A DNA stretch of 55,461 nt from Spirochaetaceae bacterium. Its GTDB lineage: Bacteria; Spirochaetota; Spirochaetia; Treponematales; Rectinemataceae. The position numbers and the translations under genes are program-made. The stretch spans positions 1 through 55,461 of the forward strand of contig JANXYQ010000093.1 in assembly GCA_025355995.1 (NCBI GenBank), written 5' to 3'. The notes under the pieces were generated by a model that was not told the origin of the DNA, made no database searches, and saw only the letters and a list, made by a program, of their open reading frames with translations. Shown here in pieces: positions 1-16,251 of the stretch (positions are counted from its first letter, which is position 1; each line of letters opens with the position of its first letter).

Positions 1-509
1 CTATCGAGCCCGAAGGGATTGCCGAGCGCCACAACGAATTGTCCTACTTTCAGGCTCTTCGAGTCGGCAAGGGGCAGCGGTGAAGCGGCGGTAGTCTCGG
101 AGATAGCCAAGACCGCGAGGTCATTAGAGGGGTCCTTGCCGATTACGCTCGCCTTATAGGTCTTCCCGTTGTCGAAGGAGACCGTCACCTTATCCGCGTT
201 GGCGACGACATGGTAGTTCGTCACGATGTGGCCCTTCGAATCGTAGACAAATCCCGATCCCGTTCCCTCCTGCGGGACGGCTCTTCCGATGGCGTCCTGG
301 CCCACGATGCTGCTCGTGATATTCACGACCGAGGGGAAGGCTTGATTGTAGACGGCCTCCACTTGCGCTTCCAGCCCGAGGGCGCTAGCCTGTTCAGCCA
401 TTGCAGCCGCCGGCGCCAGCGCGAGAATCGCGATCAGGGCGAATACACCCTTGTTGGCCTTTGGACGACTGGAGCGAGTCGGCTGGTTCGCGAGTTTAAG
501 GCTTATCAT
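1..509 (-). CDS. HtrA/DegP-like periplasmic serine protease, N-terminal part
   Basis: The gene runs off the left window edge; 169 codons are visible. It is an S1C (HtrA/Deg) trypsin-like protease that would degrade or refold damaged envelope proteins. Residues 20-38 form a hydrophobic export signal or anchor ending in APAAAMAE. The TGSGF strand, the catalytic His in VTNYHVV (H100) and the catalytic Asp in NDLAVL (D130) are visible; the Ser motif GNSGG and any PDZ domain lie outside the window. The ATG at 509-507 overlaps the TGA of the upstream Met-rich gene (ATGA), so the two are translationally coupled. It is the third gene of the operon that starts with the rhodanese. Confidence 0.9.
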   Translation of the reverse strand, partial: MISLKLANQPTRSSRPKANKGVFALIAILALAPAAAMAEQASALGLEAQVEAVYNQAFPSVVNITSSIVGQDAIGRAVPQEGTGSGFVYDSKGHIVTNYHVVANADKVTVSFDNGKTYKASVIGKDPSNDLAVLAISETTAASPLPLADSKSLKVGQFVVALGNPFGLD

Positions 510-1186
510 TTCTGGACCCCGAATTCCTTCATCGCGATGAACTTCCCGTGCCAGGAATGATACCAAACCTGTCCCGTGTACCCGTTCACGCCGAGCATCC
601 CATACACGGCTCCGTCCTTGAGTACGTGAAGGGTGTAGTAGCCGTAGAACTTATCGGCCCCGTCCTCGACTTTGAGGCCAGGCTGCTGGGCATCGAGAGC
701 CTTCTGCGCCAGTTCGCGCGCCTTGGCCTCAGAGATGGACATCGGAGAAGAGGCCTGGGGCTGGAAGAAGAGCCCGCCCATCATACCGCTCGCCATCATG
801 CCGTACTTCTGGTTCCACATCATGTTCGGTCCCGGTTCGGGGGATACCGCGCCTGTGTACTTGTTCATGATCAGTTCCAGAGCCTTCTGGTCACCGCCCT
901 TTTCCCCGATCTCGAGATAGAACTGATTGGAGAACTCCATGATCTCCGCGATCTGGAGCTTATCGTCGCCCCACGAGGCGAGGTACTTCTTGGCCTGATC
1001 CGCGGCTTGATCGATCGTGAGCGGAGCCTGATTCCCCAGCGGGATATAATTGTAGGCGCCGCCCATCATCCCCTGCCCATAGCCGCCCATCATGCCGCCA
1101 CCATAGCCGCCGCCCATCATGCCCTGCGCGCCGAGGACAGCAGCCACAAGAGCGGCCAAACATGCGACCACCAACATCTTCTTCAT
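506..1186 (-). CDS. Secreted Met/Gly-rich PepSY-like protein, probable copper binder
   Basis: 226 residues with a Sec signal peptide (MKKMLVVACLAALVAAVLGA, residues 1-20). Residues 22-43 are a run of GMMGG-type repeats and a second GMM cluster lies near 129-138; Met clusters of this sort bind Cu(I) in periplasmic copper proteins. The rest resembles two PepSY-like units (SISEAKARELAQKAL, YGYYTLHVLKDGAVYGMLGVN). AAAGGAG sits just before the ATG. It lies 68 bp downstream of the rhodanese gene and overlaps the HtrA start. Copper sequestration or sensing in the periplasm is inferred from composition and from the operator shared with the copA operon; no catalytic residues are recognised. Confidence 0.75.
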   Translation of the reverse strand: MKKMLVVACLAALVAAVLGAQGMMGGGYGGGMMGGYGQGMMGGAYNYIPLGNQAPLTIDQAADQAKKYLASWGDDKLQIAEIMEFSNQFYLEIGEKGGDQKALELIMNKYTGAVSPEPGPNMMWNQKYGMMASGMMGGLFFQPQASSPMSISEAKARELAQKALDAQQPGLKVEDGADKFYGYYTLHVLKDGAVYGMLGVNGYTGQVWYHSWHGKFIAMKEFGVQK

Positions 1187-1254
1187 ATCCTGCTCCTTTG
1201 CGCCGTATGCGCATATCCTAAGAAACTATCCTTTGACGCCATCTTCAATTCGAA

Positions 1255-1662
1255 CTACTTTCCGAGCAAAGGCAGGCCAGCCTGTTCCCAGGCGATCATG
1301 CCACCTTCGAGATCGAGCACATTCGTATATCCCAGGCGCACGAGCTCCTTCGCCGCGATCGCGGACATGTGGCCGCTCCTGCAATACACGACGAGGGCTG
1401 CATTCTTGTCCTTGGGGTACTTGGCGATAAGGCTTGCAGTCTGATCGTAGGGGATGAACGCATCGGTACCTGATATCACGCCGGCATACGGGATGTGCAC
1501 ATTGACGAGGTAGAAGTCCTTGGCCTTCAGTATGGCCGACAGTTCTTGCGGAGTTACTTGCCGGACCTTCGCGGCCGGGCTCGCATTCAGAAATGCAATC
1601 GCCGACAGGATGACAACCCCGATTGCCAGAACCGTCTTGACCCAATTCCGTAGACCGCTCAT
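1255..1662 (-). CDS. Membrane-anchored single-domain rhodanese
   Basis: 135 residues from the ATG at 1662-1660, chosen because GGGAG lies 8 nt upstream; a longer frame to 1725 lacks a ribosome site and adds an unlikely tail. Residues 9-27 form an uncleaved or cleaved N-terminal helix, so the domain faces the periplasm. The rhodanese fold follows (VTPQEL, LVNVHIPYAG, LVVYCRSGHMS, LDLEGGMIAWEQAGLPL) with the active-site Cys at C94 in a six-residue CRSGHM loop. Rhodaneses move sulfane sulfur between thiols. First gene of the operon with the Met-rich protein and HtrA; it follows the tandem-box promoter at 1725-1760. Confidence 0.85.
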   Translation of the reverse strand: MSGLRNWVKTVLAIGVVILSAIAFLNASPAAKVRQVTPQELSAILKAKDFYLVNVHIPYAGVISGTDAFIPYDQTASLIAKYPKDKNAALVVYCRSGHMSAIAAKELVRLGYTNVLDLEGGMIAWEQAGLPLLGK

Positions 1663-1724
1663 ATCAACTACTCCCGCGTATCTCAGTATCGATACGCTCC
1701 ATCTCGAATTGGATTTCAATAGCA

Positions 1725-1760
1725 AGAGTACTCAAGGATGATGAAGCGATTGTGAACGCC
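1725..1760 (-). promoter_or_regulatory. Tandem 11-bp operator and -10 of the rhodanese operon
   Basis: Read on the minus strand the units are GCGTTCACAAT then CGCTTCATCAT, with the TTCA cores exactly 11 bp apart. A -10 candidate TACTCT (1730-1725) starts exactly 10 nt after the second TTCAT, and no good -35 is present. The same layout occurs at 5454-5488 and 15167-15201. One-turn direct repeats replacing the -35 are typical of OmpR/PhoB-family response regulators acting as activators. This copy is the most diverged of the three. Confidence 0.6.
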
Positions 1761-1829
1761 ATCTATTTTTACGATGCGGCCGTAGTCCACTCTATTCAGC
1801 CAGGATGAAGGCCGCCTGTTTTTACGATG
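1737..1829. repeat. Imperfect direct repeat between divergent promoters
   Basis: The 11-mer TTTTTACGATG occurs at 1766-1776 and again at 1819-1829. Each copy follows a similar lead: AGGATGATGAAG...GCCATCTA before the first and AGGATGAAGGCCGCCTG before the second. The first copy overlaps the rhodanese operator. It lies between the rhodanese operon and the chemoreceptor gene and may be a local duplication or a second regulator site. Confidence 0.5.
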
Positions 1830-1857
1830 AACTGGCTCTAGCCAAGAACAGTTTGTC

Positions 1858-1886
1858 TTGAACGTCATTCGGTATACGAATAAACT
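1858..1886 (+). promoter_or_regulatory. Candidate sigma70-type promoter of the chemoreceptor operon
   Basis: TTGAAC (1858-1863), a 17-bp spacer and TAAACT (1881-1886) lie 32 bp before the ATG at 1919. AAGGAG at about 1907-1912 serves as the ribosome site. The match to consensus is moderate; a chemotaxis sigma factor site was not seen. Confidence 0.4.
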
Positions 1887-1918
1887 TATTAAGCGAAAGG
1901 TCTAGCAAGGAGTCCTTC

Positions 1919-4111
1919 ATGCGCTCTAGCCCAGGCAACTACCGCAACAGGCTCGGATTTCGTATCGCGGTCTTTGCCGCAACTACTACGTTCATCGCAT
2001 ATGCGCTGACGCTAGGATATATCGGTGTAAGCATCCGAAGCTCCTCGAGTGAAGCTGCGCTCCGGGAAGCTCAAGGACTGGCTGCGACCCAGGCGGCTAC
2101 AGCTTCATCGGAATTCGTCTTCGTCAGGTCGTCGATCAGCGAGCTCGCCCATCTACTATCGATGACGGACATGTTCCCGAGGGCATCAAAGCGTCAACTC
2201 ATCGATGGCATGTTGAAATCGACAGTCGAGAAGGAGACGAGGTTTATCAATGCTTGGGCGGTCTTCCTGCCTGGAAGCATCGATGAGAAGACAGTCTCGC
2301 AGTTCGCATGGCATCGGATGGGAACTGATCTAGTCGCTAAAGAATACCCAACGGACAAGAGTTCCAAGCTACTCGCGACTGTACGAGAAACGAAGGAAGT
2401 CTGGGTTTCCGAGCCTTATGCAGTTTCGCAGCTTGCCGGAACCATGACCATGGCAAGCAAGGGCGGAGAACTTGCGAGCAGCATCGCTGCCCCTATCATT
2501 GACGCCTCAGGGAATGTCATAGGCGTAGTTGGCGCCGATTTCAACCTTGCGGCTCTTCAGGATCGCATGGGGAAGACTGGCTTCTTCGACAATGGCTATG
2601 GCGAGCTTCTGTCGAACGAAGCGATGGTCGTGACCGCGAAGGACTCAAAGCGCATAGGCGCAGCGGCTCACGAGCTCGAAGACGATTCAGGCACGGCGAT
2701 CAAGAGCGCGATTGCCGAAGGCAAATCGATGGCCCTCGTGTCGAAGGGCGACGAGCACGGCCCCAGCGCCTTCAAGTACCTGACGTCCGTAGATACTGGC
2801 GTGTCGGGCAAGTCATGGAGCTACTTGATCGTCATTCCCTATGCGGAAGTGATGGCGAAGGTCGTGAAACTCGTCAGCATGACTATCGCGATAGGCGTGC
2901 TTTCTCTCATCGCGGCGGTCCTGACCATCGGAGCCCTGATCTCGAGAATGATCCGTCCGCTCACTGCCACGGTGGGAGCGCTCAAGGAGATATCCGAGGC
3001 CGGAGGCGATTTGACGAGAAGGATCGAGAGCGATCGACGCGATGAGGTCGGCCTACTCGCAGAGCATTTCAACAGGTTCAGCGAATCCCTCGCCCAGCGC
3101 ATAGGCGCCATAATTGCTTCGGCCCAGTCGCTTTCCAGGACAGGAGAGGAACTTCAAGAGAGTATGGGAACTGTAGCGAGTGCGGTGACCGAAATCGTAG
3201 CTAGCCTACAGGAGATGAAGGAAGGCGCGAACCGACAAAGCACGAGCATTCAGAAGTCTTCCGATGCGACGACACTAATACTAGGAAGGATACAGAAACT
3301 CGAGGATCTGGTCGCTCGTCAATCAGGCTGCGTTTCACAGTCGTCAGCGGCCGTGGAAGAGATACTGGCCAACATAGGCTCCATGGCTCACAACGCGGAA
3401 ATCGCCGGCGAACAATATGCCAGCTTGGTCACTGCATCAGAAAGCGGAACGGCCGTGATCGCCGAGGTTAGCCAAACGGCCAAAGAGATCGAGCAGCAGT
3501 CGGCAGCATTACGCGAGGCGAATACCATCATCGCAGCCATCGCTTCGAAGACAAACCTCCTCGCCATGAACGCCGCGATAGAGGCTGCCCATGCAGGAGA
3601 CTACGGCAAGGGCTTCGCCGTGGTCGCGGACGAGATACGCAACCTCGCGGAGAACTCCGCCATCCAGTCTAGGGGCATCGGCAACAATCTGAAGACCATC
3701 CAGAGTTCCATAAACGCCGTCGTAGGCGCATCGACCAGGGCGGAGAAGGCCTTCGCGGATATTCGAGGTATGATTTCGAGCCTCTATACTCTCCAAGAGG
3801 AGCAGAAGCAAGCATTGCTGGAACAGCGGGAAGGGTCATCGTCAACGATCGAAGCTCTAGCCACTATCAAGGAGGCGACCGCCGAAGTAGATTCGTCAAC
3901 CTCCCAAATGCGCGAGGCTTGCGCGAGCCTGGCCTCTGGAATGAAGTCCGTAGCCGGCGCTAGCCAGGAGTTCCTGGAAGGAGTCGGCGAGATCGCGAAA
4001 GGGGCCGCAGACATAGACGACTCGATAGTGCATGTCGCGAGCCTCGCCACCGATAACAGCGACAATATCGCCAAGGTCGCCGCAGTCGCCGGCACGTTCA
4101 AAATCGCATGA
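1919..4111 (+). CDS. Methyl-accepting chemotaxis protein with double-Cache sensor
   Basis: 730 residues. TM1 is at about 14-38, followed by a periplasmic dCACHE-type sensor region (about 40-310), TM2 near 316-343 and a HAMP linker (about 345-395, ending near [13 protein letters not shown]). The cytoplasmic signalling hairpin has its conserved tip at about 538-582 ([20 protein letters not shown], then [15 protein letters not shown]), which contacts CheA and CheW. The ligand cannot be read from the sequence. The stop overlaps the start of the HD-GYP gene (ATGA), so receptor and phosphodiesterase are made together. Codon use here includes more ATA and CTA than the GC-rich genes to the right. Confidence 0.95.
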
Positions 4112-5406
4112 ACAGCCTGCGGTCTATGTGGGCGAAGCGATTCAAGCCCGAGAAGAATGTTCTCCTAAGCTACTCGCTATTCATGCTGATCGTCGTTGCC
4201 GGTGCGTCTTCGCTTCTCGGGATCGTGCTCACTGGTTTCGTGCGTGGCCATGTCATCAGAATGCATGCCTCGTTCTATGCCGATAGCCTCTCATCAGCCT
4301 TCAGTTCAACGCTTCCTGGTGCATCGAAAGAAGAGCTCGCGCGGGCACACGACAGCCTTGAGCGCGAGGGGCTCCTCATGCATGTCAAGACAATGTCCAT
4401 ATGGGACTCGTCAGGAGTATTGCTCTATGGCGAGGCGTCCCCATTCATAGGCGCCGTAGGAAATGATCCGCTCGTAGATGCACAATCGGGCTCTCTCCGT
4501 TTCATCTACAAGACTACATCCGTACGAGGGATGTTCGATCTTCCGCGAGGCGATCTTGCCTTATACCTGCCGATCCGAGACTTGAGAAGCACGGTAATTG
4601 GAGTGATTGGCCTAATAGAATCAGACGAAGGGCTCGCCGACGACCTGGGGATCGCGGCGCGGACCATCGCTCTCTATGTATCGTTCGCCGGAGTCGCGAT
4701 CTACGCTTCCTTGTTCATGCTGTATTTCAGGTCCTACCGCCGGCAATCCCTCTACTCTGCAAGACTGAAGAAGAGCAAGGAGAGTATCATCTTCGCAATG
4801 TCGAGTCTCTCGAGTCTCCGGGACCAAGAGACGGGAGGCCACCTTGAACGATGCGAGGAGTATGTACGCCTGCTTGCAGGAGAGCTTCGCGAGGACCGCA
4901 TATTCCGACGGTATGTCGATGCCGAATACATCGAGTCCCTAGCCAACGTCGCACCACTGCACGATATAGGCAAGGTCGGAATCGATGACGCAATCCTACG
5001 CAAGCCGGGGAAGCTGACACCGGATGAATACGAGATCATGAAGACTCATTGCGCGCTCGGAGCCTCCATCCTCGAAGCCGCCCGAGAGCGATTGCCTTTC
5101 GAATCCGAGCTTGAACTTGCGATTGAACTGACACGCCATCATCATGAACGATGGGACGGCACAGGATACCCATATGGGCTATCCGGCGAATCGATTCCGC
5201 TCTCGGCGCGTATTATGGCGATTGCGGACGTCTATGACGCCCTTAGGTCCGAGCGATACTACAAGAAGGCTATCGGGCACGCGGAATCGCTCAAGATAAT
5301 AAAGGCTGGGGCAGGGACACAATTCGATCCAAGACTATTGTTCATCGTTGAAACCTGTAGCGACAAACTCGAAAGGATATATAATGGAACTCCATGTATC
5401 TCATAG
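4108..5406 (+). CDS. Membrane-bound HD-GYP cyclic-di-GMP phosphodiesterase
   Basis: 432 residues. TM1 is near 13-38 ([19 protein letters not shown]) and TM2 near 185-210, enclosing an extracytoplasmic sensor region of about 140 residues. The C-terminal half is an HD-GYP domain with the metal-binding HDIGK (H285-D286), the [13 protein letters not shown] motif near 342-354, and [11 protein letters not shown]. It should hydrolyse c-di-GMP to pGpG or GMP. All core metal ligands are present, so activity is likely. It is translationally coupled to the upstream chemoreceptor by a 4-bp overlap, suggesting the pair links an external signal to motility and to c-di-GMP. Confidence 0.93.
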
Positions 5407-5453
5407 ATGTCCTTGACATATACTGTTTTGGCGATTCATCAACTCAATAGCCT

Positions 5454-5488
5454 GCGTTCATGCTCCGTTCATAGTCCTCATATATTAT
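5454..5488 (+). promoter_or_regulatory. Tandem 11-bp operator and -10 of the methyltransferase-tlpA-ccdA operon
   Basis: GCGTTCATGCT is followed directly by CCGTTCATAGT (units start at 5454 and 5465). The two TTCAT cores are 11 bp apart, and TATTAT (5483-5488) begins 10 nt after the second core. Geometry and sequence match the box in front of the copper operon almost base for base. No independent -35 is seen, as expected for an activator-dependent promoter. Confidence 0.7.
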
Positions 5489-5523
5489 TCTCTTGAACAC
5501 GACGCGCGAGAGGGAGCGAGTAT

Positions 5524-6207
5524 ATGGACCATAGGTATATCCCGCCGCTTCGACTGAACGAACTTACGCCGCTCTTTGATGCTTTCATGAAGCATTTGCT
5601 CCCAGAGCGTCGAATCAAGGTCGAACTCCTGCAAACAATTGGAGCTCAACCTGGATCGAGAATATTGGATTTTGGCTGCGGCACAGGGACTCTCGCCATC
5701 ATGCTCAAGCTCGCGCAGCCCGAGGCGGTAATCGTCGGACTAGACATCGACGCGACTGCGTTGGGCATAGCGCGCGACAAGGCGGTTCGGCATGGCGTTG
5801 ATGTGCGCTTCGACCAGTACGATGGCGCCAGCCTGCCGTACGCCGACTCAAGCTTCGATTATGTGGTATCGACCTTCGCATTCCATCATCTGCTCGATTC
5901 CCAAAAATATGGGGCACTGCGCGAAATACTCCGAATCCTCGCGTCCGGAGCCACCTTGACCGTGGCGGACTTCGACCGCTCTCATAAGGTCCTGCTTCGG
6001 GGTGCGTTCCTCCTCCCCAGGCTTCTCGATGGTCTCGCTAACACCAGGGCGAACGCGCTAGGCCTTATTCCCTCCATGTTGGCCGAGTGCGGCTTCCTCG
6101 AAGTCGGCCGGAGAGAGAGATACGCGACCCTATTCGGCGAGGCTAGCGTAATCCAGGGCCGAAGCCCCCCGAGCTCCAACTCTCGCCAGGAGAAATCCCA
6201 CGCGTAG
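5524..6207 (+). CDS. Class I SAM-dependent methyltransferase (UbiE/Methyltransf_11 type)
   Basis: 227 residues. The SAM-binding motif I is RILDFGCGTG (47-56) and motif II is the acidic VGLDID (about 71-76); later elements include YDGASLPYADSSFDYVVSTF and a C-terminal half typical of small-molecule methyltransferases. The substrate is unknown. It lacks the conserved Cys set of arsenite methyltransferase ArsM, so that role is not supported. Start ATG at 5524 follows GAGGGAG. It is first in an operon with an exported thioredoxin and CcdA, under the operator shared with the copper genes, so a role in metal or redox stress is inferred. Confidence 0.85.
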   Translation: MDHRYIPPLRLNELTPLFDAFMKHLLPERRIKVELLQTIGAQPGSRILDFGCGTGTLAIMLKLAQPEAVIVGLDIDATALGIARDKAVRHGVDVRFDQYDGASLPYADSSFDYVVSTFAFHHLLDSQKYGALREILRILASGATLTVADFDRSHKVLLRGAFLLPRLLDGLANTRANALGLIPSMLAECGFLEVGRRERYATLFGEASVIQGRSPPSSNSRQEKSHA

Positions 6208-6751
6208 GATCATCGCAATTTTCTCGCTCCTTCTTGGTGCAGCATTTTTGAGCGCCGATGACCTCAAGGACGCGCTTAAGCGGTTACAACTCCGGACGGT
6301 CGACTCAGCGATACAGCCCATCGACTTCGAGCTCCCCTCCCTCTCCGGGATCTCTACTCGGCTCAGTTCGCTTCACGGCAAAGTCGTCTTCTTAAACTTC
6401 TGGGCTACCTGGTGCGGACCCTGCAGATCCGAGATGCCCGCTATCGAGCGACTATATGAAACACTCGGGAAGAGCGGTCTCGAGATCGTCGCCGTCGACC
6501 TTCGCGAATCGCGAGATACGGTTGCCTCGTACGCGAAGGAACTCGGCCTGAAATTCTCCATTCTCCTGGACACGCAAGGGCGGGCGGGTTCGGACTATGG
6601 CGTGAGCTCGATCCCGACGACGCTCATCCTGGATCGCGATGGCATGATCTTCAGCGCCGCCGTCGGCGCGAGGGCGTGGGACTCGCCGGAGATGCTCGCT
6701 CTGTTCCGGCGGCTCCTCGCCGCGAGACCGCTCGCAAGGGATGCTAAGTAG
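6200..6751 (+). CDS. Exported TlpA/ResA-type thioredoxin with probable ACG start
   Basis: The thioredoxin fold carries VVFLNFWATWCGPC with redox cysteines C72 and C75 and the cis-Pro in SSIPTTLIL. The first ordinary start in frame is TTG at 6248, which would leave a cytoplasmic protein without a ribosome site. The frame upstream encodes RRIIAIFSLLLGAAFLSA, a clear signal peptide, preceded by AGGAG (6188-6192) with 7 nt to an ACG at 6200. That ACG lies at the ATG position, overlapping the methyltransferase stop. I therefore place the start at ACG (183 residues). It would reduce periplasmic disulfides using electrons from the adjacent CcdA. Confidence 0.75.
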   Translation, partial: TRRIIAIFSLLLGAAFLSADDLKDALKRLQLRTVDSAIQPIDFELPSLSGISTRLSSLHGKVVFLNFWATWCGPCRSEMPAIERLYETLGKSGLEIVAVDLRESRDTVASYAKELGLKFSILLDTQGRAGSDYGVSSIPTTLILDRDGMIFSAAVGARAWDSPEMLALFRRLLAARPLARDAK

Positions 6752-6753
6752 CG

Positions 6754-7731
6754 ATGCGCGGCGATATAGGATACCTCCTCGCCTTCGGGGCAGGCTTCCT
6801 TTCCTTCGCATCTCCATGCATCCTCCCGTTGCTCCCCTCCTTCCTCTCGTTCGTTGGCGGTACGCCTCCGGCCGAGGATGAACCTGGAAACAGAGCAGGC
6901 GTAAGAAATCTGGCTCGAATCGCCATGTTCGTCCTGGGCTTCGCCTTGGTATTCGTCTCCCTAGGCCTGCTCTTCGGCGGCGGCGGGCTGCTATTTGCAA
7001 GATGGCGGAGCATCATCGATCGTGTTGCCGGAGCGCTTGTCATCCTGTTCGGGCTCAACACGATGTTCGATTGGGCGAATGCGCTCAATAGGGAACTGCG
7101 ATTCCACCCGCGGGCGAGGCCCCGGTCAGGCATCGGAGCGATGCTGGTCGGCGCCGCTTTCGGCGCGGGCTGGACCCCCTGCGTGGGGCCGGCCCTAGCA
7201 TCGATCCTATTCATGGCGGGAGCCGGGGGAGATCCAACTCGCGGAGCCGCCTTGCTCGCCGTGTACGCGGCCGGCCTCGGGCTACCATTCCTCGTGGCAG
7301 GTGCCTTCGTATCCTCCCTCTCGAACCAGATTCAAGCGATACGGGTGCATGCGAGGGCGATACGCGTCGCCAGCGGCGCATTGATGACGCTCATGGGGCT
7401 CCTTATCGAACTGGGAAGCCTTTCGAGCGTCAACGCATCGATGTTCGGCATTGCGGCCAAGTTCCAGAATTGGGGCGCCGACCATGCTGTCGCCCAGCGA
7501 GCCATCTTCGGCGCTATCTTCTTGGCCCTAGCAGCCTTCGGATCGATTCTCGGGCTCCGATATGCAAGACGATCCATGAACCAGAATACAATCGCGCGGA
7601 GGAGGCTGATCGCCAGTCTGGCGTTCGCTGCATTCACGATTGTCATGCTGTCGCTCGCCGCCCTCGTTTTCGCCGGAGTAGCGCGGCCGAACGAGATCCT
7701 CGCGGGCTGGCTTCGGTTCCAGGGAATCTAA
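6754..7731 (+). CDS. ccdA: CcdA/DsbD-type transmembrane thiol-electron transporter
   Basis: 325 residues with about seven to eight hydrophobic helices. The two conserved half-repeats have their redox Cys in ASPCILPLLPSF (C22) and GWTPCVGPAL (C143). CcdA passes electrons from cytoplasmic thioredoxin to periplasmic thiol proteins. It starts 2 nt after the tlpA-like stop, and that exported thioredoxin is its obvious partner. It is longer than minimal CcdA (about 230 residues) by a C-terminal pair of helices (from about 250) of unclear role. In this context it may keep periplasmic copper-site or cytochrome thiols reduced. Confidence 0.9.
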   Translation: MRGDIGYLLAFGAGFLSFASPCILPLLPSFLSFVGGTPPAEDEPGNRAGVRNLARIAMFVLGFALVFVSLGLLFGGGGLLFARWRSIIDRVAGALVILFGLNTMFDWANALNRELRFHPRARPRSGIGAMLVGAAFGAGWTPCVGPALASILFMAGAGGDPTRGAALLAVYAAGLGLPFLVAGAFVSSLSNQIQAIRVHARAIRVASGALMTLMGLLIELGSLSSVNASMFGIAAKFQNWGADHAVAQRAIFGAIFLALAAFGSILGLRYARRSMNQNTIARRRLIASLAFAAFTIVMLSLAALVFAGVARPNEILAGWLRFQGI

Positions 7732-10313: not shown

Positions 10314-12773
10314 TTATGCGTAGGCTTTGAAGCGCCGTAATCTGAGAGCGTTGGTGAGCACCGAGACCGAGCTCAAGGACATCGCCGCCGCTGCCAGGAT
10401 CGGGTTGAGCAAGGGCCCGCCGAAGGCGTAGAGAAGGCCGGCCGCGACCGGGATGCCGAGGACGTTGTAGCCGAAGGCCCAGAAGAGGTTCTGCTTGATG
10501 TTGCGGATGACCTTCTTCGAGAGCCTGATGGCGGTCGGCACGTCCATGAGGTCCGAGCGCATGAGGACTATGTCCGCGCTCTCCATGGCCACGTCGGTGC
10601 CCGAACCGATCGCGATGCCGATGTCTGCCTGGGCGAGGGCGGGAGCGTCGTTAATGCCGTCGCCGACCATGGCTACGACCCGTCCCACGGCCTGCAGCTT
10701 CTTCACTTCCTCGGCCTTGTCCTGGGGCAGGACCTCGGCGAGGACGGTGTCGATGCCCACGGTCCGGGCGATGGCCTCGGCGGTCTTCCGCGAGTCGCCG
10801 GTGATCATCGCCACCTTGACGCCCATGCTATGGAGAGCCTCTATAGCCCTTGCGCTCGATTCCTTCACGACGTCGGCCACGGCTATGATCCCCGCATACC
10901 GCCCGTCGATGGCGACGAACATGGGGGTCTTGCCTTCGCCTGCGAGAGCGTCCGCCTCTCCCATTGCGACGTCGAAGTCGACATGGTTCGCCTTCAGGAG
11001 CTTGGCGTTGCCGGCGAGCACGGACTTACCACCTATGCTCGCCTTGATTCCGAAGCCGGGCAGGGCCTCGAAGCCTTCGACCTGGAGTATCGGGAGCTTG
11101 CGCTCCTCGGCCGCTCGGACGATGGCCTCGCCCAAGGGGTGCTCCGAGGCCTTCTCGGCCGAGGCGGTCAACGAAAGGAGCTCGTCCTCGCCGATGCCGT
11201 TCGCGCTCACGATATCCGTCGTCTCGGGGCGTCCTTTTGTCAGCGTGCCCGTCTTGTCGAAGACGATCGTGTTCACCTTGTGCGCGGTCTCGAGGGCCGC
11301 GCCGGACTTTATGAGGACGCCGTTCTCGGCACCGCGCCCGGTGCCGACCATTATGGCTGTCGGCGTCGCGAGGCCCAGGGCGCAGGGGCAGGCGATGGTC
11401 AGGATCGCCACAAAAACCGTGAGGGCGAAGACCACGCTATGACCGAGGAGAAGCCAAATCCCCGCTGATACGAGGGCGATCGCGAACACGACAGGCACGA
11501 AGTAGCCGGAGACGATGTCCGCCATCTGCGCGATGGGCGCCTTCGAGCCCTGCGCGTCCTCGACGAGCTTAATTATGTGGGCGAGGACCGTGTCTGCGCC
11601 GACCTTGGTCGCCTTGAAGCGGATCGAGCCGTTCTTGTTGACGCTCGCGCCGATGACCTTGTCGCCGACCGACTTCTCCACCGGCATACTCTCGCCGGTC
11701 AGCATGGATTCGTCCACCGAGGTCCTGCCCGAGACGATCTCGCCGTCCACGGGGATGCGCTCGCCGGGCTTCACCAGAATGAGGTCGCCCTCCTCGACTT
11801 CCTCGATGGGCAGCTCCATCTCGACCCCGTTCTGGATGACGGTGGCCGTCTTGGGCTGGAGGCCCATGAGCTTCTTGATCGACTCCGAGGTTCGGCCTTT
11901 CGACACAGCCTCCAAGGACTTGCCGAGGAGGATAAGGGTGATGATGACGCCCGCGGTCTCGAAGTAGAGGCTGCCCACCGCCTTGAAATCACCGTTAGCG
12001 ATCCCGAAGACCGAGTAGAGGCTATAGAGGATTGCAGCGCTCGTGCCCATCGCGATGAGGCTGTCCATGTTCGGAGCCCGGCGCCAGATGGCCGAGAAAC
12101 CCACGACGTAGAATCGATGTCCGGCCGCTATGACTGGGATCACGAGAGCGATCTCGAGGAGGGCGTAGCGCAGGGGATAGTTCATCGCGTTGATGCCTGA
12201 GGGCAGGGGCCAGCCGAGCATGGCCCCCATCGCGATGTAGAGGAGGGGGATCGAGAAGGCCGCCGATATGGCGAACTTGATCCACAAGGTCCTGATCTCG
12301 CGCTCCTTGGCAGCCTTGTGCTCGTCGACGGCCTTCGCCCCTTCGAGCGCGAGGGGCGTGTAGCCCGCCTTGACGATAGCCTGCTTGATCTCCGAGAGCC
12401 TGGCGGCCGAGGGGTCGTACAATATCGCGGCCTTCTCCGTGGCGAAGTTGACCGACACCAAGGACACGCCCGGAACCTTGCCAACGGCCCGCTCTATCGC
12501 CTTGGCGCAAGCGGCGCAGCTCATCCCGCCGACGGGGATCGTGACTTCCTTGTCCCTTCGCTCTTCGATCGCCTCGTAGCCGGCCTTGGCGACAGCGGCC
12601 TTGATCTCCTCTACAGTGAGCTTGCCGTCCTCGAACTTGACGAGGAGCTTCTCCGTCGCGAAGTTGACCACGGCTTCCTCTACGCCCGAGAGCTTCTTGA
12701 CCGCGCGCTCGGAGGCCTGCGCGCAAGCCGCGCAGGTCATCCCGTTTATCTTGAGGCTTTCCGTCTTGACCAT
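10314..12773 (-). CDS. copA: Cu(I)-exporting P1B-type ATPase CopA
   Basis: 819 residues. Two N-terminal HMA domains carry GMTCAAC (11-17) and GMSCAAC (83-89). Then come the TGES actuator motif, the transmembrane CPC (near 459) within [13 protein letters not shown], the phosphorylated DKTGTLTKG (near 503), the SEHP nucleotide-binding motif and [10 protein letters not shown]. The last helices contain YN and MSLSS, the P1B-1 signature for monovalent copper. It pumps Cu(I) from the cytoplasm. Its ATG shares one base with the stop of the upstream small membrane protein (TAATG). Length and motifs are normal; it should be functional. Confidence 0.97.
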
Positions 12774-13105: not shown

Positions 13106-15112
13106 TTACCGAGAGCAGCAGCCACCCGCGCCGCCGCCCGACGAAGCCCGGTACGCGGCCACCTCAGCCTTCACCTTCTTGACATCGACCTTCGAAAGAT
13201 CGTCTACCGTCTTCACGTAGCCGTGGAGCATCCCCATCCAACACTGGAAGGTGAAGTCCTGGGTGATCGTTAGCGCTGGAGTCTCGAGCTGGCCTTTCGC
13301 CAGGTCGAGTCCTCCGTTGTACTCCGGGAACATCACGACGTTGTTGCACGAAGTCAGCTGTGAAGCCTTGAACTTGATGACCGCCTTCATGCCCTTCTGA
13401 AGCACTATCGCCGCGGGCGTGTAGCCTCTATTGTCTACGGTGATCGTGATCTCCTGGACGCTATCCTTGACGACCGGCATACCGATGGTATCGCTCGGGA
13501 CCCGCCCCCCAGCGAAGGCCGGGTTGCTCGTACCGGAACAGCAACTAGCGCCACCGCCACCAAGCAGACCCTGGAGCCCGGTGCCAGGAGCCGCGGTACC
13601 CTGCGAGCCGTCAGGAGCGGCGGCTACCGATCCGTCGGTGCTGCTCGATGGATCATCCGCAACAACGCCGCCGGAGAGGTCCTTTACGACGCTGATGCGG
13701 CTCGAGATCATACCCATCCAGCAGGTGTAGGCGATCGTACCGGTCTTCTTCGGCGTGAACTCGACGAGATTGTCGCCCGCGACGAGCGTCTTCTGAATAC
13801 CGTAAGCGGGAATCGTCACCGGGTTGTTGCAGCCGTTGAGCTCGTCATCGGTAACGCGAATCGTCCACTTAACGGGCACGCCCGCCTGGACGGTAAAGGG
13901 CACGTAGTATCCGTCCTTGAACTCGGTAGTGACGGTCTGGACTCCATTCTCGAGCTTCGCAACGATCCCCGAGCTTTTCTTGCTCGCGACCGTCGTGGCG
14001 CCTACGATACCATCAGATACCGAGACAGGACCGGCGGACGCAAGGGCAACACCACCATTCGAACCGAAGGTCGGAAGAGCGATACCCGCCAGCGAGGCCG
14101 CACGCGAGAACGTGACGACGCCGAGGAACATGACCAGGATCGCGCTCGCCTTGACCATTACGGGCAGGAAGCGCCGAGGCAACATGGTCGCCGCGAGGCC
14201 GAAGCCGAGCATTAGGGGCACAGTCCCGATGGAGAAGATGAACATTGAGAGAGCGCCGGCGAAAAAGCTTCCTGTTCCGAGGGCGTAGAGCTGCATTGTC
14301 TGCAAAGGGCCGCAGGGCATAAGCCCGTTCAAGAGGCCAACGGCGAAAGGACCGCGTATCTTCGCGGGGCGCCCGGCCTCCGAGCGCTGCGAGCGTTCAA
14401 TCCCCTTCCTGAGACCGGCCGGAAGAAGGCGGGATAGCTTGGGAAGGGCCGGGACGAGGCCGAGCATCTTCAGGCCGAGGTAGAGCATGAAAAGCCCTGC
14501 GGCGCCCGCGATCGCTCCCTTGACGGTCGGGGAGAAGTTGAAAGCCGAGCCCAAGGCCCCGACGATGCCGCCGATGATCGTATACGAGATCACTCGTCCG
14601 CCGTTGTAGAGAAGGCCAGGAGACAAGCTAGCAAGCTTGCTCTGAAGTCTTGGCGCTACCGGTGCAGATTCTATAGAGCTAGCAGAAGTTGCCTTGATGC
14701 TCTGCGACAGCGAAATGCCGCCGCACATGGCCACGCAGTGCACCGAGGTCAGGAGGCCGACGATGAAGAGCATACCGTAGCCAATCGATGCGTCGATCTT
14801 GGGAAGAGCGTTGAAGAGCCCTGCTGAACTAGCTATCATGTATGCAGCCGCGAGCACGAGGCCAATGCCGAGGGCGACGAGAGTGCTCGCGTTCCGTTTA
14901 GCTCTGACGGTGTATCCAGCTTTTTCTATAGCAGTCTTGGCCGCTTCGGGTGAAGTCTGGCCCTCGTCATACTCGAATACGACTTCTCCGCCCTGCTGAT
15001 TCGCCTTCGCGCGAAGGACTCCGGGGATCGCGAGGAGGGCTCGTTCTATCCGCGCCTCGCAGGATGAACAGGTCATGCCCTCCACGAACAATGTCAGCGT
15101 TTTAGTTCCCAT
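13106..15112 (-). CDS. HMA - SafE/DsbD-like membrane domain - double cupredoxin fusion
   Basis: 668 residues, first gene of the copper operon. Residues 1-70 are an HMA domain (GMTCSSC, C15 and C18). Residues about 79-345 form a six- to eight-helix SafE/DsbD-like membrane unit (SVHCVAMCGG, LMPCGPLQTMQLYALG). The C-terminal half holds two cupredoxin-like repeats, each with a CNN loop and a distal CWMGM loop: GCNNPVTIP with YTCWMGM, and SCNNVVMFPEYN with FQCWMGM. Linker and tail carry Cys pairs (GASCCSG, GGCCSR). It probably moves Cu(I) from the cytosolic HMA to periplasmic cupredoxin sites, or transfers electrons to them; this is inferred from the domain order. Confidence 0.85.
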   Translation of the reverse strand: MGTKTLTLFVEGMTCSSCEARIERALLAIPGVLRAKANQQGGEVVFEYDEGQTSPEAAKTAIEKAGYTVRAKRNASTLVALGIGLVLAAAYMIASSAGLFNALPKIDASIGYGMLFIVGLLTSVHCVAMCGGISLSQSIKATSASSIESAPVAPRLQSKLASLSPGLLYNGGRVISYTIIGGIVGALGSAFNFSPTVKGAIAGAAGLFMLYLGLKMLGLVPALPKLSRLLPAGLRKGIERSQRSEAGRPAKIRGPFAVGLLNGLMPCGPLQTMQLYALGTGSFFAGALSMFIFSIGTVPLMLGFGLAATMLPRRFLPVMVKASAILVMFLGVVTFSRAASLAGIALPTFGSNGGVALASAGPVSVSDGIVGATTVASKKSSGIVAKLENGVQTVTTEFKDGYYVPFTVQAGVPVKWTIRVTDDELNGCNNPVTIPAYGIQKTLVAGDNLVEFTPKKTGTIAYTCWMGMISSRISVVKDLSGGVVADDPSSSTDGSVAAAPDGSQGTAAPGTGLQGLLGGGGASCCSGTSNPAFAGGRVPSDTIGMPVVKDSVQEITITVDNRGYTPAAIVLQKGMKAVIKFKASQLTSCNNVVMFPEYNGGLDLAKGQLETPALTITQDFTFQCWMGMLHGYVKTVDDLSKVDVKKVKAEVAAYRASSGGGAGGCCSR

Positions 15113-15847: not shown

Positions 15848-15894
15848 CTTCTTTCGGGACCAAGAGATCGGTGGTTCAAATCCACTCAGCCCGA
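15848..15894 (+). pseudogene. 3' half of a tRNA-Pro(CGG) gene, probable attachment-site remnant
   Basis: The anticodon loop TTCGGGA (15853-15859; anticodon CGG, G37) is followed by stem CCAAG, variable loop AGATC, a T arm GGTGG-TTCAAAT-CCACT (15870-15886), the acceptor 3' strand CAGCCCG (15887-15893) and A73. G72 with A73 is the tRNA-Pro hallmark. The 5' half is missing: no D arm or CGGGCTG lies upstream, and the 5' anticodon stem matches only at CTT. Loss of everything before the anticodon is the standard footprint of integration into a tRNA gene. Not a functional tRNA. Confidence 0.7.
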
Positions 15895-15956
15895 CTACAA
15901 GAAACCGCTCGGCTTTTGCCGAGCGGTTTTTTCATGTTGGGCTGAGTGGATTTGAA
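15875..15956. repeat. Perfect 18-bp inverted repeat of the tRNA T-loop/acceptor sequence
   Basis: TTCAAATCCACTCAGCCC at 15875-15892 recurs as its exact reverse complement at 15939-15956, with the tRNA terminator hairpin nested between them. A third, imperfect direct copy (AAATCCACGTGAGCCCGACTA) is at 16081-16101. The stretch 15674-16251 has no other gene. Repeated tRNA-end copies suggest several integration or excision events at this spot. Confidence 0.75.
15902..15932 (+). terminator. Rho-independent terminator after the tRNA remnant
   Basis: CCGCTCGGC (15905-15913), loop TTTT, GCCGAGCGG (15918-15926), then six T. An AAA run precedes it, so it may work in both directions. It follows the tRNA 3' end by 10 bp and is most likely the original terminator of the tRNA-Pro gene. 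Confidence 0.85.
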
Positions 15957-16130
15957 CGGGAGCGCCGACCTGGAGCGCGCGAGACATCGCAGCGCGCGGA
16001 GGGGAACCGCGCCATGGATGGCGCGGTTAGGCGCGGACGTGGCCCGGAAGGACGAGGCACGATGCCGAGTCCTGGAGGGCAAATCCACGTGAGCCCGACT
16101 AGTGAGAAAGCCATTCGGCGGTTTAGTTAT
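15957..16130. other. Hairpin-rich noncoding stretch
   Basis: A perfect inverted repeat AACCGCGCCAT / ATGGCGCGGTT with a 2-nt spacer lies at 16005-16028. GCGCGC...GCGCGC pairs at about 15976-15998 and GGCACGATGCC lies at about 16055-16065. No convincing coding frame or ribosome site is present. It could be an intergenic repeat family member or a structured RNA. The imperfect third tRNA-end copy closes the stretch. Confidence 0.4.
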
Positions 16131-16251
16131 TTGATCTCTCGGAGCTCGACGACCTCGCGCAGGAAGCAGGCCATGCCACTCACGAATCCATAGTCGCCTG
16201 AAATTGGGGAAAGTCAGTTGGCGATTCCCCCGATTCATCGCGCAGTCGCCT

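Follow-up and report, generated by a model that had tools for sequence, protein, structure and literature searches.

A tRNA-Pro island end in a spirochaete adjoins a gene-less, apparently undescribed family of tRNA-tail elements that may be mobile DNA

Sublocations for integration within tRNA genes, for example the anticodon loop and the T-loop, are known (PMC8371274), and partial tRNA genes at the ends of islands have already been described (PMC9897764). We analyzed a stretch of 55,461 bp, here called the window, which is contig C29, one of the 138 contigs of a spirochaete genome (G000). It contains exactly such a partial tRNA gene, and the published description accounts for this half gene only and not for a structured element that follows it at 15939-16096.

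A first-pass annotation of the window had claimed that a tRNA-Pro(CGG) gene is present only from the anticodon loop to the discriminator base and is followed by its terminator. Both parts of this claim held (Table 1): the 5' half of the gene is missing, and ARAGORN found no complete tRNA in the whole window. An intact tRNA-Pro(CGG) with the same 42 bp lies on another contig of the genome (G000:C73:20723-20795) and, as had been predicted, has an integrase gene beside it. An open frame begins just after this tRNA and encodes 150 residues up to the point where the contig stops; these match the N-terminal domain of an integrase (PF14659, E 5e-5), so that only the start of the gene, cut by the contig end, is present. 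Synteny between C73 and relatives extends to the tRNA-Pro, with 80.5% DNA identity over 1.7 kb to G001, and window positions 15853-16109 match the sequence directly 3' of the intact tRNA-Pro in relatives (75-80% identity over ∼250 bp in G003, G010, and G017, and 69% in G038). Hence, C73 and C29 are the halves of one ancestral locus that was split by an insertion. The 42 bp form an exact direct repeat, one copy in the intact tRNA-Pro on C73 and the other at the far end on C29; the end sequence of C73 occurs only there in the genome, and attL and attR are on two contigs. tRNA-Pro(CGG) is the insertion site of an integrase-type island, of which the half gene in the window is the attR, and attL and the start of the integrase are on C73. 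The tRNA-Pro and integrase on C73, together with the comparison with relatives, also supported the prediction that the inserted island lies to the left of the half tRNA, which marks its right end.

Table 1. Positions of the features in the window
Feature	Position	Strand	Remark
Copper-type P1B ATPase	10314..12773	-	in presumed island
HMA + DsbD-like membrane + cupredoxin protein	13106..15112	-	in presumed island
attR, tRNA-Pro(CGG) 3' part, anticodon loop to A73	15853..15894	+	TTCGGGACCAAGAGATCGGTGGTTCAAATCCACTCAGCCCGA; 42 bp identical to intact tRNA-Pro, contig C73
D0, tRNA-Pro nucleotides C56-A73	15877..15894	+	18 nt copied by the element
Terminator hairpin with T run	15903..15932	+	between tRNA end and element
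Structured element	15939..16096	+	158 nt; MFE -90 kcal/mol; 150.6 bits with model R1
I arm, inverted copy of tRNA-Pro 3' end	15939..15957	+	19 bp, exact
Hairpin P3 of core	15974..15998	+	
Hairpin P4 of core	16005..16028	+	loop CATGGATG
Hairpin P5 of core	16042..16080	+	best conserved part
D arm, direct copy of tRNA C56-A73	16080 to about 16098-16101	+	one inserted base
Degenerate second terminator	16104..16127	+	read directly from sequence; probably remnant of second tandem unit

The copper genes are located left of attR, and the first 10 kb of the window have a G+C content of 0.56-0.60, lower than most of its right part. These genes are likely members of the same tRNA-Pro island, a putative assignment in which C73 and C29 are separate in the assembly. 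The genome contains a second, complete tRNA-inserted island with the same layout on contig C16 (L262, G000:C16:16900-26425, positions 237-7300), with an intact tRNA-Leu(gag), a 401-residue integrase (PF00589), 6.8 kb, a 57-bp attR repeat, a terminator, and an element in this order. The 57-bp repeat is exact and starts in the anticodon loop. The element that comes after this attR repeat is degenerate.

The element in the window consists of two arms that flank a core of three hairpins. The annotation had noted an exact 18-bp inverted copy of the tRNA end and an imperfect third copy; both exist, the former being exact over 19 bp and the latter carrying one inserted base. None of 100 shuffles produced a chance match to the inverted copy, and the I arm and the terminator together form a 40-nt inverted repeat with 88% complementarity. 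Relatives show the same order behind their tRNA-Pro, an inverted copy of the tRNA tail after the terminator, then hairpins and then a direct copy, with fold energies of -58 to -117 kcal/mol. On the minus strand, a 120-codon open frame (15876-16238) extends in antisense across both the tRNA tail and the element; it has no Pfam match and is probably not a gene.

We searched for further copies with the covariance model R1 and with a second model, R2, built from 67 copies; both were seeded at tRNA-Pro, and most of the searched genomes are draft assemblies. R1 identified seven candidates in this genome, five of them at E below 1e-6, and the element in 33 of 59 relatives. With R2 we found it in 47 of 296 Spirochaetota genomes, mostly of the same order and class, including Spirochaetae bacterium HGW-Spirochaetae-3 (10 copies) and complete genomes of 4,059,867 and 3,239,340 bp, which we take to be Treponema primitia ZAS-2 and T. 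caldarium; a complete genome with 17 copies is presumably T. primitia. The genomes among the 296 that we take for T. denticola and T. pallidum lacked it, and none was present in seven genomes of Firmicutes and Chloroflexi. The median length of the element is 141 nt. For 105 of 122 copies, an intact gene for a tRNA or tmRNA (27 kinds) stands shortly before the element, at a median distance of 46 nt and with both on one strand; most of the other 17 stand behind a truncated tRNA tail like the copy in the window, and none of the 122 has its tRNA on the opposite strand. Copies are single or stand in tandem, with at most five near-identical units per array, all in one orientation. At one locus (L270, G247:C1:3216000-3218200), five nearly identical units of ∼190 bp follow a tRNA-Pro(ggg). 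Rfam gave some low-scoring hits and no match above gathering thresholds, BLASTN found no match in phages and plasmids, and a sequence pattern found none in viral contigs, a weak test as the pattern detects only 15 of 241 element loci. The open-access literature contained no description of such an element, and subscription journals may differ; the family of gene-less tRNA-tail elements is apparently undescribed. Another repeat (motif ACAATCCATTCC...CCGAAAGCGGCGCG) appears to be nested inside several elements or to lie beside them (L244 at tRNA-Thr of G032, L246 at tRNA-Gly of G027, and L133) and is absent from the window.

The arms of each unit are tailored to the tRNA gene in front of it. A unit contains an inverted copy of tRNA positions T54 to ∼70, the conserved multi-hairpin core, and a direct copy of C56-A73. 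The inverted arm has 85% identity to its own tRNA and 57% to other tRNAs. Its exact run from T54 has a median of 16 nt, beyond which identity is at the random level (27%). The direct copy matches its own tRNA at position 54 in 1% of cases, at position 55 in 9%, and at position 56 in 97%, giving an exact start at C56, and in copies without a following unit the agreement drops from 88% to 45% after A73. Both arms start in the T-loop, the sequence common to all tRNAs.

Closely related genomes showed that units come and go. In the congeners G027 and G032, one tRNA-Gly is followed by an array and the other by the same terminator only. As the empty and the occupied site have the terminator in common, the insertion begins beyond it, which differs from a plain integration into a tRNA tail. 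The tRNA-Glu site of the two congeners has the same flanks and arms and different cores, and at a tRNA-Ser site (L242/L243) the core has been deleted in G032 between two 7-bp GAACCGA repeats, which fused the two arms. Ties between cores are weak (mean similarity 0.641 at the same tRNA, 0.656 within the same genome, and 0.619 in the background), and the nearest core often lies at a different tRNA. We considered the identical cores at L198 and L201 as a recent jump and rejected this, because they belong to one tRNA-Arg array split over contigs.

We read the window as an island attR in tRNA-Pro(CGG) that adjoins an undescribed, gene-less family, and hold it slightly more probable than otherwise that this family is a non-autonomous mobile DNA unit, either similar to an integron cassette or copied from a template. 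Strands would join at the universal T-loop. The closing stem of the folded single strand would restore the tail of the tRNA gene in double-stranded form, as the attC hairpin of integrons recreates its recombination site, and a recombinase supplied in trans, most likely of the tyrosine type, may insert, stack, and remove units there. We infer the enzyme, and the first candidates would be host recombinases or integrases acting in trans. In several genomes the distal tail copy apparently served island integrases as attachment site (attB), too. In complete genomes no recombinase gene was regularly found beside the elements, and PF00589 genes were not placed beside them; we rejected a dedicated neighbouring integrase because none is near elements in these genomes. 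We observed no circle of an excised unit. Ordinary site-specific recombination does not explain how one core gains the arms of a new tRNA, which counts against mobility by a recombinase.

The main rival is template switching through the T-loop, which is a possible but doubtful origin of the arms. A replicating strand stalled at the terminator hairpin would fold back and copy the tRNA tail in reverse, yielding the I arm, and then jump via the universal T-loop into the core of another element and back to the tRNA tail, yielding the D arm, all without a dedicated enzyme. Template switching better explains how arms are re-tailored, and also the ragged inverted arm, whose end points are sharp and variable. 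It agrees with the start of both arms in the only sequence common to all tRNAs, with the short-repeat slippage at GAACCGA in G032, and with the mutations at which the arms differ from the tRNA and yet pair with each other, which are commoner than independence predicts (13 versus 2.8). However, the exact limits of the D copy at C56 and A73 are sharper than usual for template switching, the core is conserved across families, and no copy lies on the opposite strand.

Alternatively, the host could maintain the distal tail copy as a decoy attachment site that draws islands and phages away from the tRNA gene, which we consider improbable. Over C56-C70 the D arm and the tRNA share 95-100% identity, and integrase-like starts, short remnants that we read by eye, come immediately behind the D copy in G005, G010, and at two loci of G000. 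The islands of the window and of C16, however, are inserted in the tRNA and not in the decoy, ordinary genes follow most elements, and protection would be of little value since integration at the 3' end normally restores the tRNA. The integrase-like N-termini are mostly broken (L265, G000:C75, after position 463; L264, minus strand, after position 695; L122 and L121, after the element).

The same-strand placement, the strong conserved fold with covariation, and G-A mismatches of the sheared type would also suit a structured non-coding RNA, which could for instance base-pair with the tRNA or share its transcript. Among five sequences, 20 of 54 pairs showed a compensatory change; among 67 copies, all 54 pairs changed on both sides and none of 500 shuffles reached the observed covariation, in an alignment fitted to the model. 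We counted pairs with a hairpin finder that scores G-T and A-C alike. The 2319 element pairs included 10 G-T and 15 A-C, compared with 125 and 0 in the tRNA stems of the same loci and 28 and 2 in their terminators. A functional RNA would have many more G-U pairs. As G-T is no commoner than A-C in the element helices, the structure is kept at the level of DNA and not as RNA. The helices are held as Watson-Crick pairs without G-U bias, and the form that is selected or maintained is DNA, either because the cruciform or single strand has a function or because a templated process corrects the pairing. With a terminator usually between tRNA and element and no Rfam family matched at gathering thresholds, we regard an RNA as very unlikely.

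The annotation had taken the inverted and third copies as signs of repeated island integrations. We give this origin almost no credence, although an island does end here and integration hot spots are places where tails of tRNA genes build up. Direct integration makes no inverted copies, and the two are the paired arms of a separate element that already existed. In dozens of genomes and at 27 kinds of tRNA, such a pair of copies encloses a conserved core, in most cases with no island.

Under the reading as a non-autonomous mobile unit, one family of tiny elements would address every tRNA gene via a bespoke copy of its tail. We found no description of targeting by tail copy in the literature, and this principle may be a relative of the folded single-strand recombination of integron cassettes. 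The exact joints at C56 and A73 can be offered for biochemistry. For annotation, the arms of these elements can wrongly pass for scars of islands. We give even chances to a new class of mobile DNA, consisting of gene-less units that fold as single strands and insert behind any tRNA or tmRNA gene, with tailored arms and the universal T-loop as joint.

Three described systems resemble the element in part. REP/BIME palindromes with their RAYT transposases are likewise short, structured intergenic DNA repeats in many copies, whereas the element is placed strictly at tRNA genes, has custom arms, and does not co-occur with Y1_Tnp genes. Such genes are absent from the element-bearing genomes G030, G033, G038, G045, G046, G053-G055, and G057 and present in several element-free genomes, and we therefore rejected a RAYT/Y1 transposase as a general partner. 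Integrase islands in tRNA genes share the join within the tRNA and the duplicated 3' tail at the far end. In contrast to them, the element is ∼140 nt long, carries neither integrase nor cargo, has an inverted tail copy and a conserved hairpin core, and occurs with many kinds of tRNA per family.

Integron cassettes and their attC sites are similar in being palindromes of a folded strand, in having paired arms that copy the primary recombination site, and in forming tandem arrays of one orientation. T. primitia has been reported to lack an integron (PMC3607928). The element unit differs in having no gene, for which ∼140-230 nt leave no room, in arms that copy the tails of 27 kinds of tRNA and not one core site, and in its multi-branched core. 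The element would work like an integron cassette but, gene-less and with arms made of tRNA tails, is not one by the features tested.
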